The translations under genes were made by a program, and so were the position numbers. A stretch of DNA of 64,000 bases from assembly GCA_009377495.1 (NCBI GenBank), contig WHTZ01000001.1:116625-180624 (forward strand). The letters are read 5' to 3'. This stretch comes from Luteitalea sp. (lineage in GTDB: Bacteria > Acidobacteriota > Vicinamibacteria > Vicinamibacterales > Vicinamibacteraceae). The notes under the pieces are model-generated. The model saw only the letters and a program-made list of their open reading frames with translations, had not been told where the DNA came from and made no database searches. The number at the start of each line of letters is the position of its first letter. The first letter of the stretch is position 1. This document shows positions 619-13,383 of the stretch, piece by piece.

Positions 619-657
619 ATTAACCGAGATTTAACCAGACTGTCACGGACGGGTAAC
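619..657 (+). promoter_or_regulatory. candidate tandem Pho box upstream of the PhoB-like regulator
   Basis: Four hexamers sit exactly 11 bp apart: ATTAAC (619-624), TTTAAC (630-635), TGTCAC (641-646) and GGTAAC (652-657). All fit N(T/G)TNAC. An 11-bp direct-repeat period is the hallmark of PhoB/PhoP-family operators, and TGTCAC is close to the E. coli half-site. The array ends about 100 bp before the regulator start, suggesting autoregulation. Function is inferred. The same half-site and spacing recur before pstS and before the small gene at 3906-4133. Confidence 0.6.
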
Positions 658-758: not shown

Positions 759-1502
759 GTGATCCATGCCACGATGCCTCGGACCAGCCAGCCGCAACCG
801 GATCGTCTCGCGGACAGCCGGACACGCATTCTGGTCGTCGAGGACGAACAAGACCTCGCCGATTTGATTCGCCACGCGCTCGAGCGCGAGAAGCACATGA
901 CCGTCGACACGGTCACGAGCGGTGATGCCGCGCTTCAGCTCGTCGCCCAGCACGTGCCTGACCTGGTCCTCCTCGATCTGAACTTGCCTGGCGTCGATGG
1001 TTTCGAGGTCTGCCGACTGTTGCGTGCGCGCCCGACGACCTCGCAAGTGCCCATCATCATGCTCACGGCGCGCGCGGGCGAGCCAGATCGTATCGCCGGT
1101 CTGGATCTAGGTGCCGATGACTACATCGTCAAGCCCTTTAGCCTGCGCGAGCTGGCGGCACGCGTGCGCGCTGTGCTACGACGGCGCCAGCCACAGGCGG
1201 CGCCCCCGCTCAGCCTGTATCGAGGGAAGCATCTCGTGGCCGACTTCGACGCCGTGGCGGTCCAGGTCGAGGGGCAGGCGGTGCGCCTGACCCGCCGCGA
1301 GTTCGAGCTGCTCCGCTGCCTGGTCGAAAACAGAAATCGTGTGCTCTCGCGAGATCGACTCCTCGAGATCGTGTGGGGCTACGATCAGTTCATCGAAACA
1401 CGCTCGGTCGACGTGCACATCGGCCGCCTCCGCGCGAAGCTCGGGCCGGCAGGCAACCAGATCGAGACGGTCGTCGGCCTCGGGTACCGATTCGTCGAAT
1501 AA
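759..1502 (+). CDS. phoB: OmpR/PhoB-family response regulator
   Basis: A 247-residue two-domain regulator. The receiver domain (about 23-140) has the acidic pocket E28/D29, phospho-acceptor D73 in LLDLNLPG, T103 and K125 in VKPF. A winged-helix DNA-binding domain (about 150-246) ends in the typical VVGLGYRF strand. The GTG start at 759 is preceded by GGGAG (747-751) at 7 nt spacing; an ATG at 774 is the alternative. Its place next to ppk, with Pho-box-like repeats upstream and a pst operon 12 kb away, makes it the likely phosphate regulator PhoB. No histidine kinase gene is adjacent; the sensor must be encoded elsewhere. The OmpR-family call is certain, the PhoB role is inferred. Confidence 0.85.
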   Translation: MIHATMPRTSQPQPDRLADSRTRILVVEDEQDLADLIRHALEREKHMTVDTVTSGDAALQLVAQHVPDLVLLDLNLPGVDGFEVCRLLRARPTTSQVPIIMLTARAGEPDRIAGLDLGADDYIVKPFSLRELAARVRAVLRRRQPQAAPPLSLYRGKHLVADFDAVAVQVEGQAVRLTRREFELLRCLVENRNRVLSRDRLLEIVWGYDQFIETRSVDVHIGRLRAKLGPAGNQIETVVGLGYRFVE

Positions 1503-1648: not shown

Positions 1649-3904
1649 ATGCCTCCGACCGATCCTGTTGCAGGTCCCGCTTCCGAGCCTGCGGAGCAGG
1701 CGGGCGCGTCCGCGCATACCCTGGCACTCGTTCAGCCGCGCGTCACCGCACGTGCACGGGGCCGGCGCCGAGGCGAAGCGCCCTCGCATCTGCCAGCGCC
1801 AGACTGGAGCCAGGTCGATCCGCACAACCTGAGCGACCCGGCCCTGTACATCAACCGGGAGTTGAGCTGGCTCGAATTCAATGAGCGGGTGCTCGATCAG
1901 GCGCGCGACGCCGCGCACCCGCTGCTCGAGCGGGTGAAGTTCCTCGCGATTGCCGCGAACAACCTGGATGAGTTCTTCATGGTCCGGGTGGCGACGCTCT
2001 TGAAGAAGTACCGAGCGGGCATCGAGGACGTGTCGCCCGACGGCTTGCACACGGAGCAGCAGCTTCAGGCGGTACGGCTGCGAGCCGGCGAGATGTTTGC
2101 GGAGATGACGGCCTGCTGGCGCGAGACGCTGCGGCCGCTGCTGACGGGCGTGGGCGTGCACTTCTTGGAGCCCACGGACTACACGCCCGAAATCCGCGCG
2201 TTTCTGTCGGCGCTGTTCAAACGCGAGATCTTCCCGGTGCTGACGCCGCTCGCCTTCGATCCGGGACACCCGTTTCCGTACATTTCGAATCTGAGCAAGA
2301 ACCTCGCGGTCGTCGTCAAGCACAACGGGCGGACGAAATTCGCGCGCGTGAAGGTTCCGGACGTGCTGCCGCAGTTCGTCCAGGTTCCAGATGGCCTGGC
2401 GCCAAGGCCGGGCGCCACGTTCGCGTTCCTGGAGGACGTCATCCGCGCGAACGTCCAAGAGCTGTTTCCCGGCACCGAGGTACAGGAGGCACACCTGTTC
2501 CGCATCATCCGGGACACCGACATGGTGATCCAGGAGGACGAAGCGGACGACCTGCTGGAGTCGGTCGATCGCAGCCTCAAGCAACTCCGGTACGGGGCGC
2601 TCTCGCTCCTTCAGGTCGAGGGCGCGATGCCGCGTCGCGTGCTACGCATTCTCGTCGAGAACTTCGAGGTAGACGAGGACGCCGTGCTGCGGACGCCCGA
2701 CCGGCTGGGATTTCGCGATTGGATGGAGCTCACGCGGCTACACTTGCCACAGTTCAAGGACGCGCCGTTCTCTCCGCGTGTGCTCTGGCCGAATCCCGAT
2801 AGCGATCTCTTCGACGAGCTCCACTACGAGGACCAGCTCCTCCACCATCCATTCGACTCGTTCGCCTCGGTCGAGTCCTTTCTCAAGGTGGCGGTCACGG
2901 ATCCACAAGTGATTGCCATCAAGATGACGCTCTATCGCATCGGCGCGAACTCGCCGCTCGTCGACATGCTCATCGAGGCCGCCGAGCAGGGCAAACAGGT
3001 CGCCGTGCTCGTGGAGCTCAAGGCGCGCTTCGACGAGCGAAACAACATCGCCTGGGCAACGCGTCTGGAATCGGCGGGTGTGCACGTCGTGTACGGCCTC
3101 CTCAACCTGAAAACGCACTGCAAGTTGTGCCTGGTCATTCGGAAGGAACCAGACGGCATCACGCGGTACGCGCACATCGGGACGGGCAACTACAGCCGCG
3201 AGACCTCACAGATCTACACCGACCTCGGCATGTTCACCGCCGACGAGACGATCGTCGACGACATCAGCGAGGTCTTCAACTACCTGACCGGCTACTCGAA
3301 CCGCCGGAGCTTTCTGGAGCTGCTGGTCGCCCCAGTGTCGCTGCGCGCGCAGCTCACGGCGTTGATCGATCGCGAATGCGAGCACGGACAGTCGGGCCGC
3401 CCCGCTCGACTCATCTTCAAGAACAACGCCATCACAGACCCCGCGATGATTCGCGTCCTGTACCGAGCCTCTCAGTGCGGCGTGCCGGTTGATCTCATCA
3501 CGCGCGGCGTGTGTTGCCTGCGGCCAGGTGTCACAGGTGTCAGTGAGACCATTCGTGTGCGCTCGATCGTCGGCCGATTTCTCGAGCACTCACGCATCTA
3601 CTATTTCGAGAACGGCGGAGAGTCCGAAGTGTACATCGGCAGCGCTGATCTGATGGAACGGAACCTGGATCGCCGCGTCGAGACACTGTGCCCGGTGAAG
3701 AATCTACAGGTCCGCAGCCACCTGCGCGAGACCGTGCTCGAAGCGTATCTGGCAGACACGGATCGCGCGAGAGTGCTCATGCCCGACGGACGGTACACGC
3801 GCGCCACATCCGCACCCGAGACCGCGCCGCTCAACGCGCAGCAGGGGTTGCTCGATTACTACACGTCGGAAAAGGGATCGGGGACCTTCTTTCGCATCAC
3901 GTAG
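1649..3904 (+). CDS. ppk1: polyphosphate kinase PPK1
   Basis: The enzyme reversibly transfers the gamma phosphate of ATP to polyphosphate. The protein has 751 residues, slightly longer than the usual 690-720 because of a roughly 60-residue Pro/Ala/Arg-rich N-terminal extension before the conserved YINRELSWLEFNERVL segment. The two histidines essential in PPK1 are present: H490 in KTHCK and H509 in YAHIGTGNYS. Their 19-residue spacing is the same as H435/H454 of E. coli PPK. Phospholipase-D-like C-terminal domains follow. The start is the first ATG after the palindromes and no strong ribosome site is seen. It is convergent with the small gene at 3906 and lies beside phoB, consistent with a phosphate-storage role. 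Confidence 0.97.
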   Translation: MPPTDPVAGPASEPAEQAGASAHTLALVQPRVTARARGRRRGEAPSHLPAPDWSQVDPHNLSDPALYINRELSWLEFNERVLDQARDAAHPLLERVKFLAIAANNLDEFFMVRVATLLKKYRAGIEDVSPDGLHTEQQLQAVRLRAGEMFAEMTACWRETLRPLLTGVGVHFLEPTDYTPEIRAFLSALFKREIFPVLTPLAFDPGHPFPYISNLSKNLAVVVKHNGRTKFARVKVPDVLPQFVQVPDGLAPRPGATFAFLEDVIRANVQELFPGTEVQEAHLFRIIRDTDMVIQEDEADDLLESVDRSLKQLRYGALSLLQVEGAMPRRVLRILVENFEVDEDAVLRTPDRLGFRDWMELTRLHLPQFKDAPFSPRVLWPNPDSDLFDELHYEDQLLHHPFDSFASVESFLKVAVTDPQVIAIKMTLYRIGANSPLVDMLIEAAEQGKQVAVLVELKARFDERNNIAWATRLESAGVHVVYGLLNLKTHCKLCLVIRKEPDGITRYAHIGTGNYSRETSQIYTDLGMFTADETIVDDISEVFNYLTGYSNRRSFLELLVAPVSLRAQLTALIDRECEHGQSGRPARLIFKNNAITDPAMIRVLYRASQCGVPVDLITRGVCCLRPGVTGVSETIRVRSIVGRFLEHSRIYYFENGGESEVYIGSADLMERNLDRRVETLCPVKNLQVRSHLRETVLEAYLADTDRARVLMPDGRYTRATSAPETAPLNAQQGLLDYYTSEKGSGTFFRIT

Positions 3905-3905
3905 C

Positions 3906-4133
3906 CTAGGCGCGGCGCCACCCCTGATCACTCGGCGTGTCCAAGTCAAAGAGCCATCGCGCGCGCTCCACTCGATGCCAGTCTGAGCACACCGTCTCGC
4001 GTACGACGCGATTGTCTTGCTCCTCGAGCACGCACCACCCAGTTTCCGCGGTGTGCACGATCAGGCGCTTGATGCTGCCGGCCACGTGTCGCCTGCAGAC
4101 CTCGACCGGTCGGCTAGGGGGGGCTGGATTCAT
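3906..4133 (-). CDS. 75-residue unknown protein behind a candidate Pho box
   Basis: I do not recognise this family. The ATG at 4133 is preceded by a strong Shine-Dalgarno GGAGG at 4 nt (reverse strand 4138-4142), which argues that it is translated. The protein is soluble, with two Cys (in EVCRRH and GWCVLEE), a third in ETVCSDW, and several Trp in its second half (DWHRVERARW). The Cys/His set could bind a metal but forms no classical motif. A direct repeat matching the Pho-box candidates lies about 60 nt upstream on the same strand. It ends 1 bp from ppk1, tail to tail. A phosphate-starvation-induced small protein is the working inference. Confidence 0.6.
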   Translation of the reverse strand: MNPAPPSRPVEVCRRHVAGSIKRLIVHTAETGWCVLEEQDNRVVRETVCSDWHRVERARWLFDLDTPSDQGWRRA

Positions 4134-4193
4134 AAGACCTCCGAAGGGGGCACGAAGAGCGCCTATCATCGCGCGAGATGCCGGTCGCGGGAT

Positions 4194-4210
4194 GTAAATT
4201 CTTTGTAACG
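4194..4210 (-). promoter_or_regulatory. candidate Pho box of the small unknown gene
   Basis: On the minus strand the order is CGTTAC (4210-4205), AAAGA, ATTTAC (4199-4194). The two half-sites fit N(T/G)TNAC and are 11 bp apart, as before pstS (GTTTAC, ATTTAC). The site is about 61 nt upstream of the ATG at 4133. The rest of the 4134-4322 gap shows no gene. Confidence 0.5.
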
Positions 4211-8327: not shown

Positions 8328-8366
8328 TGTCCCTCCTTCGGAGACGTGACGAGATGACAAGCTGAT

Positions 8367-8407
8367 GGCGCCCCTAAAGGGGCGCCCTACCTAAAGGGGC
8401 GCCCTAC
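8367..8407. repeat. REP-like palindrome, GGCGCCCC type
   Basis: A 20-bp perfect palindrome, GGCGCCCCTAAAGGGGCGCC, is followed by CTAC, then a repeated half (CTAAAGGGGCGCCCTAC). Read on the minus strand it begins with GTAG, the tetranucleotide that precedes REP hairpins. It lies between the two PHP genes. The rest of 8328-8452 holds GTCACC-type words and no gene. Confidence 0.8.
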
Positions 8408-10176: not shown

Positions 10177-10680
10177 CTACGAATCGCCCAGCTTCCGGAG
10201 AATCTTCGGCGTCGCGAACCAGCGGAGCGTTCCGGGAGTCGACGGGGGGAGCGCCGTCACTTCAACGCAGCAGACGGCGCCTTTCTTGAACGGCACGGCT
10301 TCGCGCGTCCCGAGCAGCCGGGCCGCCAACTCGCTCATCGACGGCTCGTGACCGACCAGAGCAATACTGCGCTGGCGGGGACGAACGGGTAAGGCCGCGA
10401 GCATTTCTCCGATGCGGGTGCTGGGCGCGAGCTGGGCAACCTCGACGACCGGTGGACGCGGAGAGAGCCCTTCGGCAATCAGATCCGCCGTCTGCCGGGC
10501 TCGCTGGTAAGGGCTCGTGAACACCACGTCGATGACCACATCGAGCGCGGCGAGACCACGCACCACGCGCCGCATGCGAGCAATGCCTTCGGCCGTAAGT
10601 GGACGCTTGCTATCGTCCGGCCAAGCAGGCCCGCGCTGTTCGGCAATGGCGTGGCGAATCAGATAGACGTCGATGGACAC
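10177..10680 (-). CDS. sixA: SixA-type phosphohistidine phosphatase
   Basis: A histidine-phosphatase-superfamily protein of 167 residues with the catalytic RHA motif (R9-H10 in YLIRHAIAEQ), the second arginine in SPYQRARQTA and the second catalytic His in LVGHEPSM. SixA enzymes remove phosphate from histidine phosphotransfer proteins. The GTG at 10680 starts 2 bp after the CHAD gene stop. The longer open frame upstream would overlap CHAD by over 100 bp and encodes Arg/Pro-rich residues, so it is rejected. Pairing with a CHAD protein and divergence from an exopolyphosphatase suggest a link to polyphosphate metabolism. Confidence 0.85.
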   Translation of the reverse strand: MSIDVYLIRHAIAEQRGPAWPDDSKRPLTAEGIARMRRVVRGLAALDVVIDVVFTSPYQRARQTADLIAEGLSPRPPVVEVAQLAPSTRIGEMLAALPVRPRQRSIALVGHEPSMSELAARLLGTREAVPFKKGAVCCVEVTALPPSTPGTLRWFATPKILRKLGDS

Positions 10681-10682
10681 CG

Positions 10683-11552
10683 TTAGAATTGGCTCGCTTC
10701 GCTCGCCGACTCGAGGCGCGGGGCGACGCGTGCGCTGATCTCCCCGGCAAGCCGGATGAGCGCCTGCGCACGCTGGACGTACCGCGCGTGCAGGATGCGG
10801 CACTCGCGCGTGATCTCACCCACCAACTGGCGCAATCCGGCCTCGAGCTGGGGCTGCACCTGCTGCTCGATCTCGAGCTCGCGCCCGTACGAGGCCAGCA
10901 CGTCGAGATCGTGCAGCCGACCCAACACATCCTGCATCCCCTTGAGCCGCCCAATCAGCCGACCCACGGCCGCCACGTCTGTCTCATCGGCCAGCTCCAA
11001 CGCGTAGCGGAGCCGCTTGCTCGCAATGCGGACTGCGTGGAGCGCCTCGGTGGCGTACAACGCGCCCGCGCTGTCCACCGCTGCCACGAGCGCCTCCGCC
11101 TGTCGGGACAAGTGCACCGCCAGCGCGTCGGTCCAGGCCACGTCTCCAGCGTCCGTCAGGCGATCGATGAGCGCGCCGACGTGCTCGCGCAGGCGCCGCA
11201 CACGCTGGCCCGACAATCGACTGCGGGCCTCGCGGAACGCCCGCTCGCGTTTCGCGCGCAGCCGCGCCTCCAGGGTGGCACACGCCGCGTGCGTCTCCGG
11301 CCAGCGTGCCGAGAGCTCGGCTAAGTCCGTGAGCGCCACGTCGAGCTCGCGCACCGGGCCGAGCGCTCGTGTGAGCCGTCGCAGTCGACGCTCGAGCTTT
11401 CGTCGCCCTATGCCGGTCAAGCCGGCGGCCATGACGGGCACCGCTTCGCGCAGCCGCCGAGAGGCCACACGCACCTGATGAATGCCCTCGACGTCGCCGG
11501 CCATCGCGCCCGGGAGTCGCCGATCGAGCGCCCGGAGTCGACGCTCGACCAC
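10683..11552 (-). CDS. CHAD-domain protein (polyphosphate-associated)
   Basis: An all-helical protein with the conserved His/Arg/Lys pattern of two CHAD repeats: IHQVRVASRRLRE near the N-terminus and LHAVRIASKRLRYALEL past the middle. CHAD domains bind polyphosphate and locate to polyphosphate granules. The start is uncertain. The GTG at 11552 opens directly before the domain; a GTG at 11579 and an ATG at 11657 are alternatives. The gene is followed within 2 bp by sixA and is divergent from the exopolyphosphatase gene. The context fits a granule-associated function. Confidence 0.82.
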   Translation of the reverse strand: MVERRLRALDRRLPGAMAGDVEGIHQVRVASRRLREAVPVMAAGLTGIGRRKLERRLRRLTRALGPVRELDVALTDLAELSARWPETHAACATLEARLRAKRERAFREARSRLSGQRVRRLREHVGALIDRLTDAGDVAWTDALAVHLSRQAEALVAAVDSAGALYATEALHAVRIASKRLRYALELADETDVAAVGRLIGRLKGMQDVLGRLHDLDVLASYGRELEIEQQVQPQLEAGLRQLVGEITRECRILHARYVQRAQALIRLAGEISARVAPRLESASEASQF

Positions 11553-11727
11553 TGCCGCACACCTGCACCCTCCACCCACGCCGTCGATCTTAATTGAGAA
11601 AACGGCGAACTGTCCCTCGTTTTCGGGATGCTTGGCGGAAAGCGTCGCGAAGGTCACACAATCGACACCGATCCCCCGATCTCGCGCGCCTCCTAGACGG
11701 AAGGTCAGATTGGCGGCCGTTTGCCTT

Positions 11728-11733
11728 TACAAT
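11728..11733 (+). promoter_or_regulatory. -10 element TACAAT of the exopolyphosphatase gene
   Basis: TACAAT lies 11 nt before the ATG at 11745, so transcription should begin about 5 nt before the start codon, giving an almost leaderless mRNA. No clear -35 hexamer is seen. Confidence 0.4.
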
Positions 11734-11744
11734 CGGGGACCTGT

Positions 11745-13292
11745 ATGCGCATTGCCGCAATCGATATCGGGACCAACTCGGTCCACATGATTGTCGTCCA
11801 GGTTCGGCCCGATCTGTCGTTCGAGGTCGTCGACCGCGAGAAGGAGATGGTCCGGCTCGGGGCTGGCGGTCTCGACGGGCGATCGCTCGCCCCGACCGCC
11901 ATGACCGCGGCCCTGCAAGCGCTCGCCAAGTTTCGCCGGCTGGCTGACTCGCGCGAGGTGGACGAGATCGTGGCCACAGCGACGAGCGCCGTCCGCGAAG
12001 CAGTCAACGGTGCGCTGTTTCTCCGTCGCGTGGCCGCGGAGACCGGTATTCGGGTGCGTGTCATCTCCGGCACGGAAGAGGCACATCTCATCCATCATGC
12101 CGCCGCGTATGGCACGGCCGTGGGTCGGGGCTCGGCGGTGGTCATCGATATTGGTGGTGGCAGCGTCGAGATCACCCACGGCTCTGCCACACGTGTCCGG
12201 TTGGCGCGCAGCTTCAAGGTGGGTGTCATCCGACTCACGGAACGCTTCGTCCACAGCGACCCGCTCAGCCGGCGCGATGAGCGACGGCTTGCGCGGTATG
12301 TCACGGAACAGACCGGCGCATTCGTGGCGCGCGCTCGTGATCGCGGATTCACGCGCGTCATTGGAACGTCCGGCACCATCCTCAGCCTGGGCGCCTTGGG
12401 AGCGATGGAGACGACGGGCACGCCGCCGGGCGACCTACGCAACTTACGGGTGAGCGCGAAGGCGATCCATCGCGTGCGCAAGCGGCTGCTGGAGCTGGAC
12501 CTCGAGGAGCGGCTGCAGTTGCCAGGGCTCGATCCGCGGCGCGCCGATCTCGCGGTGACTGGTGCCATCCTCCTCGATACCTTGCTCGCCGAGCTTGGCG
12601 CCGACGAGATCACGCTCTGCGACCTGGCGCTCCGCGAGGGCCTGGTGCTCGACTACATTCGCCGCAATCCGCGCCATATTGCGACCATCGAGCACTATCC
12701 CGATGTGCGGCGCCGCAGCGTGGTCGAGCTCGCCGACCGGTGTCAAGCGTGGACGGACCACGCTCGCCACGTCTCGTATCTCGCGCTACGCCTCTTCGAC
12801 CAAACGCGCCAGCGCCATGGTCTCTCTGCGCGCGAGCGCGAGTGGCTGGAGTTCGGATCGCTGCTCCATGACATTGGGGGGCACATCAGCTACAAGGCGC
12901 ATCACAAGCATTCGCAGTACCTCATTCTGAACGGCGACCTCCGGGGCTTCGAGCCTGAAGAGATCGAGGTCATCGGGCTGGTCGCGCGCTATCACCGACA
13001 GGCGACACCCAAGAAGTCACACGATGGCTTCGGTCAGCTCGCCGCCGACACGCGGAAGGCCGTTCGCGTGCTGGCGGCCTGCCTGCGGCTTGCCGAAGGT
13101 CTCGATCGCAGTCACGCGCAGGTGGTGCGCGACCTGCGGGTGGTCGAACGCCGTGACGAGTGCGTCATCCGGATCCGCACGCAGGGAGATCCGGAGCTCG
13201 AGTTGTGGGCGGCCAGCCGGCACCGTAAACCGTTCGAGCGCGAGGTCGCCGGGGGACCGGTGCGGTTGGAGGTCGGTTCTCGGAAGGGATAA
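11745..13292 (+). CDS. ppx: exopolyphosphatase, Ppx/GppA family
   Basis: A 515-residue enzyme that hydrolyses terminal phosphate from polyphosphate and possibly pppGpp. An actin-like ATPase fold starts at once (AAIDIGTNSVHM), with the second phosphate loop VIDIGGGSVEI near 135 and GTSGT near 210. The C-terminal part is an HD-type helical domain (CQAWTDHARH, LLHDIGGHI, ARYHRQ), as in long Ppx proteins. The ATG at 11745 is preferred to a GTG/TTG region upstream because the fold begins there. The final residues SRKG and the stop are supplied by the AAGGGGTA repeat. Divergent from CHAD/sixA and followed by pst genes. Confidence 0.93.
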   Translation: MRIAAIDIGTNSVHMIVVQVRPDLSFEVVDREKEMVRLGAGGLDGRSLAPTAMTAALQALAKFRRLADSREVDEIVATATSAVREAVNGALFLRRVAAETGIRVRVISGTEEAHLIHHAAAYGTAVGRGSAVVIDIGGGSVEITHGSATRVRLARSFKVGVIRLTERFVHSDPLSRRDERRLARYVTEQTGAFVARARDRGFTRVIGTSGTILSLGALGAMETTGTPPGDLRNLRVSAKAIHRVRKRLLELDLEERLQLPGLDPRRADLAVTGAILLDTLLAELGADEITLCDLALREGLVLDYIRRNPRHIATIEHYPDVRRRSVVELADRCQAWTDHARHVSYLALRLFDQTRQRHGLSAREREWLEFGSLLHDIGGHISYKAHHKHSQYLILNGDLRGFEPEEIEVIGLVARYHRQATPKKSHDGFGQLAADTRKAVRVLAACLRLAEGLDRSHAQVVRDLRVVERRDECVIRIRTQGDPELELWAASRHRKPFEREVAGGPVRLEVGSRKG

Positions 13293-13317
13293 AGGGGTAA
13301 AGGGGTAAAGGGGTAAA
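13287..13317. repeat. tandem AAGGGGTA octamers
   Basis: About three and a half copies of AAGGGGTA lie between ppx and pstS. The first copy contains the ppx stop codon. The same word ends the rhomboid gene (22620-22640) and the homocysteine methyltransferase gene (57061-57075). Confidence 0.85.
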
Positions 13318-13321
13318 GTCG

Positions 13322-13338
13322 GTTTACATGAAATTTAC
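13322..13338 (+). promoter_or_regulatory. candidate Pho box of the pst operon
   Basis: GTTTAC (13322-13327) and ATTTAC (13333-13338) are 11 bp apart, 46 bp before the pstS ATG. They match the half-sites before phoB and before the 75-residue gene. A TANNNT element (TACCGT, 13371-13376) sits 7 nt before the ATG and could be the -10. Confidence 0.6.
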
Positions 13339-13383
13339 AGGCGCGAAACCCGTGTGAAATCCGCCAGGGCTACCGTTGGGGCT

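Follow-up and report, generated by a model that had tools for sequence, protein, structure and literature searches.

A strong candidate for a new small phosphate-uptake regulator: a conserved 70-odd-residue protein family of Vicinamibacterales

Within the window, by which we mean the whole 64,000-nucleotide stretch of Luteitalea sp. contig WHTZ01000001.1 that was analysed, a small gene on the minus strand (4133–3906, including the stop codon) encodes a 75-residue protein with the signature GWEV...DWHRVERA (MNPAPPSRPVEVCRRHVAGSIKRLIVHTAETGWCVLEEQDNRVVRETVCSDWHRVERARWLFDLDTPSDQGWRRA), preceded, as had been predicted, by a GGAGG ribosome-binding site (4138–4142, minus strand) 4 nt 5' of the ATG. 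Its convergent neighbour is the polyphosphate kinase gene ppk1 (1649–3904, plus strand; four PP_kinase domains found), and because the ppk1 stop codon ends at 3904 and that of the small gene at 3906, the two genes lie tail-to-tail with 1 nt between them, an arrangement also recognised from the start. Beyond ppk1 lies a gene for a PhoB-like response regulator (Response_reg plus Trans_reg_C; 759–1502, plus strand) to which the family is linked, with a Na/Pi cotransporter, two phosphate-binding-type proteins and a phosphate-selective porin encoded upstream of it, and the remainder of the conserved locus comprises SixA-like (minus strand), CHAD (minus) and Ppx/GppA-like (plus) genes at 10177–13292. 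Three Pho boxes stand out in the window: GTTACAAAGAATTTACA upstream of the small gene (4193–4209, minus strand; two TTACA half-sites 11 bp apart), TTTACATGAAATTTACA upstream of pstS (13323–13339, plus strand), and the weaker TTAACCGAGATTTAACC upstream of the PhoB-like gene (620–636, plus strand). Two repeats were also seen, namely two almost identical palindromes (AAAAGGGGCCAGGCCCCTTTTT-like) between phoB and ppk1 (1503–1600), which resemble dispersed repeats of the REP or terminator-like kind, and a short tandem GGGGTAAA run (13289–13319) immediately before the pstS box.

Evaluating the small gene for coding signatures, we found a homologue in the same genus that is likewise 75 residues long (68% identity, E 4e-31), with dN 0.177, dS 1.18 and dN/dS 0.15 between the two genes and with differences at codon positions 1, 2 and 3 numbering 13, 12 and 34; none of the alternative frames was coding-like in this comparison. 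Six other homologue pairs gave dN/dS values of about 0.08 to 0.32, and for every pair the proposed frame had the lowest dN/dS among the six frames. Given the homologue's E-value, the low dN/dS and a positionally conserved box upstream, the ORF is more than chance, and we conclude that it is a genuine protein-coding gene under purifying selection. GC-rich DNA commonly yields chance short ORFs, and one might suppose a spurious ORF here, conserved through overlapping DNA constraints, but we give this next to no probability: purifying selection is confined to the proposed frame, homologues at 30–50% identity keep the invariant residues, and the predicted fold is confident, such that the invariant residues and the frame-specific dN/dS together refute it. 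An alternative in-frame ATG upstream, at 4169, would yield an 87-residue version; the 75-residue start is preferred because that ATG falls within the conserved −10 position of the promoter. An Rfam scan of the region returned no RNA family. The original prediction had claimed an unrecognised 75-residue protein and staked the claim on there being a homologue and on a dN/dS not near 1; both were found, and the protein is genuine, conserved and without a database family. It had also called the protein Cys/Trp-rich, a fair description given its 3 Cys and 4 Trp, although across the family as a whole only three Trp (positions 33, 52 and 72) and no Cys are conserved.

A profile search gave matches in 56 of the order's 162 genomes; in about 50 the match clearly belongs to the main family (E < 1e-14), and there is almost always one copy per genome. 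A phylum-wide draw of 297 Acidobacteriota genomes held it in 13, all Vicinamibacterales, and when 84,980 species were scanned for the DWHRVERA stretch, 36 loci came back, with Acidobacteria or Vicinamibacteria as the label of nearly all of them, so that neither the phylum draw nor the motif scan placed the family outside Vicinamibacterales. Three public MAG records (L062, L063, L082) carry Cyanobacteria or Acidimicrobiia labels that look mistaken, since their contigs equal in length those of order members (G030, G025, G050). Across 47 members, W33, D51, W52, H53, V55 and E56 (window numbering) are invariant and G32, D40, R54, R57, G71 and W72 nearly so. Searches of Pfam (covering the 47 members), NCBIfam, PHROGs and the PDB gave no trusted-score match, and by sequence comparison this is a new family, uncatalogued in these resources and, across the genomes searched, confined to one Acidobacteriota order. 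Hits to DUF5995 (E 0.0014), IsiD (E 0.0011) and DUF2555 (E 0.0021) involved one or two of the 47 members each and were set aside as chance-level, for IsiD and DUF2555 after a literature check and a rescan of further members, while matches to small heat-shock proteins in a PDB sequence profile search were weak (E 0.02–0.06) and fell in the strand region. A second, more distant group of small proteins bears a DWHRVER/DWRRIER stretch (L151, 9739–10074, plus strand; L152, 216–395, minus; L154, 6189 onwards, plus; L157, 3689–3919, minus), with no Pho box detected at its members; because both kinds occur side by side in one genome (L120 and L157 of G119), a paralogous branch with a different role may exist.

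AlphaFold2 models of the window protein (pLDDT 83, pTM 0.66) and of a canonical member (L037; pLDDT 94.7, pTM 0.79) both comprise four strands, one helix beginning at DWHRVER and a short final strand. The predicted fold, confident for the canonical member, is a four-stranded antiparallel sheet followed by a helix (beta4-alpha), in which the charged residues conserved where the helix begins are suggestive of a binding surface. Foldseek searches of both models against the PDB yielded nothing significant (best E 0.4), nor did a structure search of one model against viral models. Pur-alpha of Borrelia (PDB 3nm7, 3n8b) has a similar beta4-alpha element order in a 70-residue unit, but with a Foldseek E of about 2 and a TM of 0.44 the likeness is not significant and is one of topology only.

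We then come to the promoter, where Pho-like repeats had been placed 61 nt upstream of the start: the box is real and conserved in 43–44 of 49 cases, but it ends 59 nt before the ATG, with a −10-like hexamer, GATGAT (4165–4170, minus strand), 22 nt downstream of it. Pho boxes are defined as tandem direct repeats with an 11-bp period, situated 5' of the promoter (PMC4415409), and the Vicinamibacterales consensus at the small gene, GTTACANAGWRTTTACA, is a 17-bp element with that period. Scoring above 13 against a 99th percentile of 9.4 in random 170-nt windows (the PWM thresholds being our own choice), the element lies upstream of 43 of 49 homologues, or 44 once the start of L137 is corrected, the L146 site being doubtful; a convincing box is absent at L139 and L146–L148. 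When 41 promoters were aligned on the element, conservation was restricted to its 17 columns and a −10-like _A_RAT block 22 nt beyond it, with flat flanks, a layout that would put the box immediately 5' of the −35 position, where the site of a PhoB-type activator would be expected. Because this motif had been trained on small-gene promoters and was in that respect circular, a second was learned de novo from 18 pstS promoters alone, revealing TTAACACGGAATTAACA in 18 of 18 and recovering the identical site in 38 of 49 small-gene promoters (score cut 6; random windows, 95th percentile 1.5 and 99th 12.7, with weak sites individually not all significant).

Scanning 911 kb of collected loci with the small-gene matrix (cut-off 17 bits) recovered 40 small-gene promoters plus those of the window and L137, and besides these five sites at pstS, two at phoB and one each at L048, L149 and L153. 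The L149 match may belong to a divergent copy of the small gene, and the L153 box (8359–8375, plus strand) sits beside a divergent family member but faces the other way; it may serve the gene on its far side, or both genes. A pattern search of 161 genomes for the exact form KTTACRNMGWRTTTACA found 27 occurrences versus 2 for the reversed pattern, and all 27 precede phosphate genes: the small gene (18), pstS (4), pstB-phoU (3) and DUF47 (2, identified by similarity to the Pfam-confirmed L043 protein). Allowing up to one mismatch, the window's own genome has 3 sites, the small gene and pstS being two of them. With a tandem box of 11-bp period at the small gene and boxes also at the pstS, phoB, pstB-phoU and DUF47 promoters of the same genomes, the small gene is very probably a member of the Pho regulon, and from these sequence signals we infer with high confidence that PhoB drives its induction at low phosphate. 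The Pho link first proposed for the gene thus holds, through the site that the pstS-derived motif finds and through the gene's genomic linkage with phoB, pst, ppx and pitA.

This linkage is seen across 51 loci, in counts that treat related genomes as independent. A PhoB-like gene lies directly tail-to-tail with the small gene, within 120 bp, in 32 of them, and phoB is linked by other arrangements in 7 further loci; it adjoins the small gene in another orientation in L048, L132 and L144. Two loci, both from the window's genus (G000, G001), have ppk1 between the small gene and phoB, and L143 shows a different arrangement of ppk1. Three contigs end at the small gene, and the characteristic neighbourhood is absent at L139, L146, L148 and L150. 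The typical order runs phoB, small gene, diacylglycerol-kinase-like, SixA, CHAD, ppx, pstSCAB and phoU, with the SixA, CHAD and ppx genes 1–4 kb from the small gene in other genomes, and the window retains this order, interrupted by ppk1 and a glycosyltransferase block. One locus (L044 10900–12300, genome G048) keeps ppx, CHAD and SixA upstream of the small gene and has a glgC-like gene in place of phoB downstream; G048 yielded no PhoB orthologue.

Other neighbours belong to phosphate transport. In L043 and L049 a DUF47-pitA pair lies between the small gene and phoB on the small gene's strand, so the three genes, the small gene first, could share one Pho-boxed promoter, and in L051, L147 and L149 the adjoining gene is pstA, phoU or pstS. 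Such loci would suit an accessory protein of phosphate transport that modulates the activity of Pst or of the Pit/DUF47 transporter, but most genomes have the small gene alone facing phoB rather than within a pst or pit operon, and the protein sequence shows no evident membrane segment, leaving this an unlikely role.

Gene content was also compared across the order. A PhoB orthologue (at least 245 bits) is present in 43 of 50 genomes with the small protein versus 29 of 111 without it (Fisher p 7e-13), and PPK1 in 38 of 50 versus 53 of 111 (p 0.001), both tests counting genomes as independent in a set that includes some incomplete ones. Since 29 genomes possess a PhoB orthologue without the small protein, the latter is not essential to PhoB signalling. 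The original prediction had taken the place beside ppk1 to suggest a modulator of polyphosphate or of Pst/Pho signalling, and the latter is still our leading hypothesis. A protein that modulates polyphosphate kinase or the turnover of polyphosphate would suit the tail-to-tail pairing in the window's genus and the presence of ppx, CHAD and SixA in the wider conserved locus. The proposed check of synteny with ppk1 went against such a role, however: elsewhere the neighbour is mostly the PhoB-like regulator, and an intervening ppk1 is confined to the two loci of the window's genus. Moreover, the ppk1 association is far weaker than that with phoB, and 12 of the 50 genomes bearing the protein gave no PPK1 match, among them G008, G010, G022 and G050, which are 96–98% complete, such that the ppk1 adjacency in the window is a local rearrangement rather than a functional link. 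Co-occurrence leads us to reject a PPK1 partnership as the main role, and a modulating role in polyphosphate metabolism is improbable.

The gene most regularly found next to the small gene is phoB, in several orientations; elsewhere it is pst, phoU or pitA-DUF47, and this is why we favour an accessory or feedback role for the small protein. A PhoB-induced accessory or feedback factor is our best overall explanation, with roughly an even chance of being correct, and feedback exerted on the signalling proteins specifically falls a little short of that. More broadly, we infer with moderate confidence that the protein acts on the phosphate signalling or uptake machinery, which is reasonable in view of the DUF1127 and YtfK precedents below. 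As we picture it, the protein would be cytosolic and part of the Pho regulon; under phosphate shortage, phosphorylated PhoB would bind the tandem 11-bp repeat immediately 5' of the −35 position, driving transcription from the conserved −10. The first turns of the helix would then present the invariant D-W-H-R-V-E-R motif, through which the protein may bind a phosphate-signalling component (PhoR, PhoB, PhoU or the Pst/Pit machinery) and tune the kinase/phosphatase balance or uptake. A sharper version makes the family a feedback regulator peculiar to this lineage, induced by PhoB and of a fold absent from the PDB, that acts directly on PhoB, PhoR or PhoU via the DWHRVER helix start. This we put forward only tentatively; if true, it would mean a new kind of brake or amplifier for the Pho system. 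The motif itself is a clear target for mutagenesis.

Linkage to phoB, pst, phoU and pitA would also fit an uptake role or another starvation process. Rather unlikely, to our minds, is a Pho-regulon effector standing outside Pho signalling and coupling phosphate starvation to another process, much as YtfK of E. coli links it to SpoT and (p)ppGpp. The small protein shares size class and, very probably, PhoB control with YtfK (PMC6917717) as well as lineage restriction, and its motif resembles a binding surface more than an enzyme site. Yet the steady adjacency to phoB, pst, phoU and pitA better fits an actor inside phosphate handling, and no known family is related to the protein in sequence.

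In Proteobacteria and Firmicutes the Pho system is textbook knowledge, but our literature search for an Acidobacteriota Pho system found no paper. The present analysis supplies a box consensus for Vicinamibacterales (GTTACANAGWRTTTACA for the small gene, TTAACACGGAATTAACA for pstS), a promoter layout and the linked new protein family. Among known phosphate-signalling accessories, PhoU and DUF47 (PhoU_div) share both their loci and their box with the small gene, but the small protein, a predicted beta4-alpha unit of 70 residues, matches neither family. PhoU and DUF47 are larger and all-helical. Unlike the small gene, ytfK is not known to be linked to phoB or pst. YtfK of E. coli, a PhoB-controlled small activator of (p)ppGpp synthesis by SpoT, is like the small protein, as pictured here, in being about 8 kDa, cytosolic, encoded by a PhoB-controlled gene and restricted to a few related orders (PMC6917717), but the two are unrelated in sequence, the 47 members giving no Pfam match above cut-off. 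The DUF1127 small proteins (SDPs of A. tumefaciens, YjiS of E. coli) bind PhoR and restrain phosphate uptake (PMC12501420); they too are very small, and PhoR binding is the kind of activity we propose here, but they differ in family and fold, with no DUF1127 match in our Pfam scans, and contrast with the predicted mostly beta-sheet, Pho-boxed family described here. Should the small protein indeed act on PhoR or PhoB, it would stand beside DUF1127 and YtfK as another lineage-invented small regulator of the same pathway.
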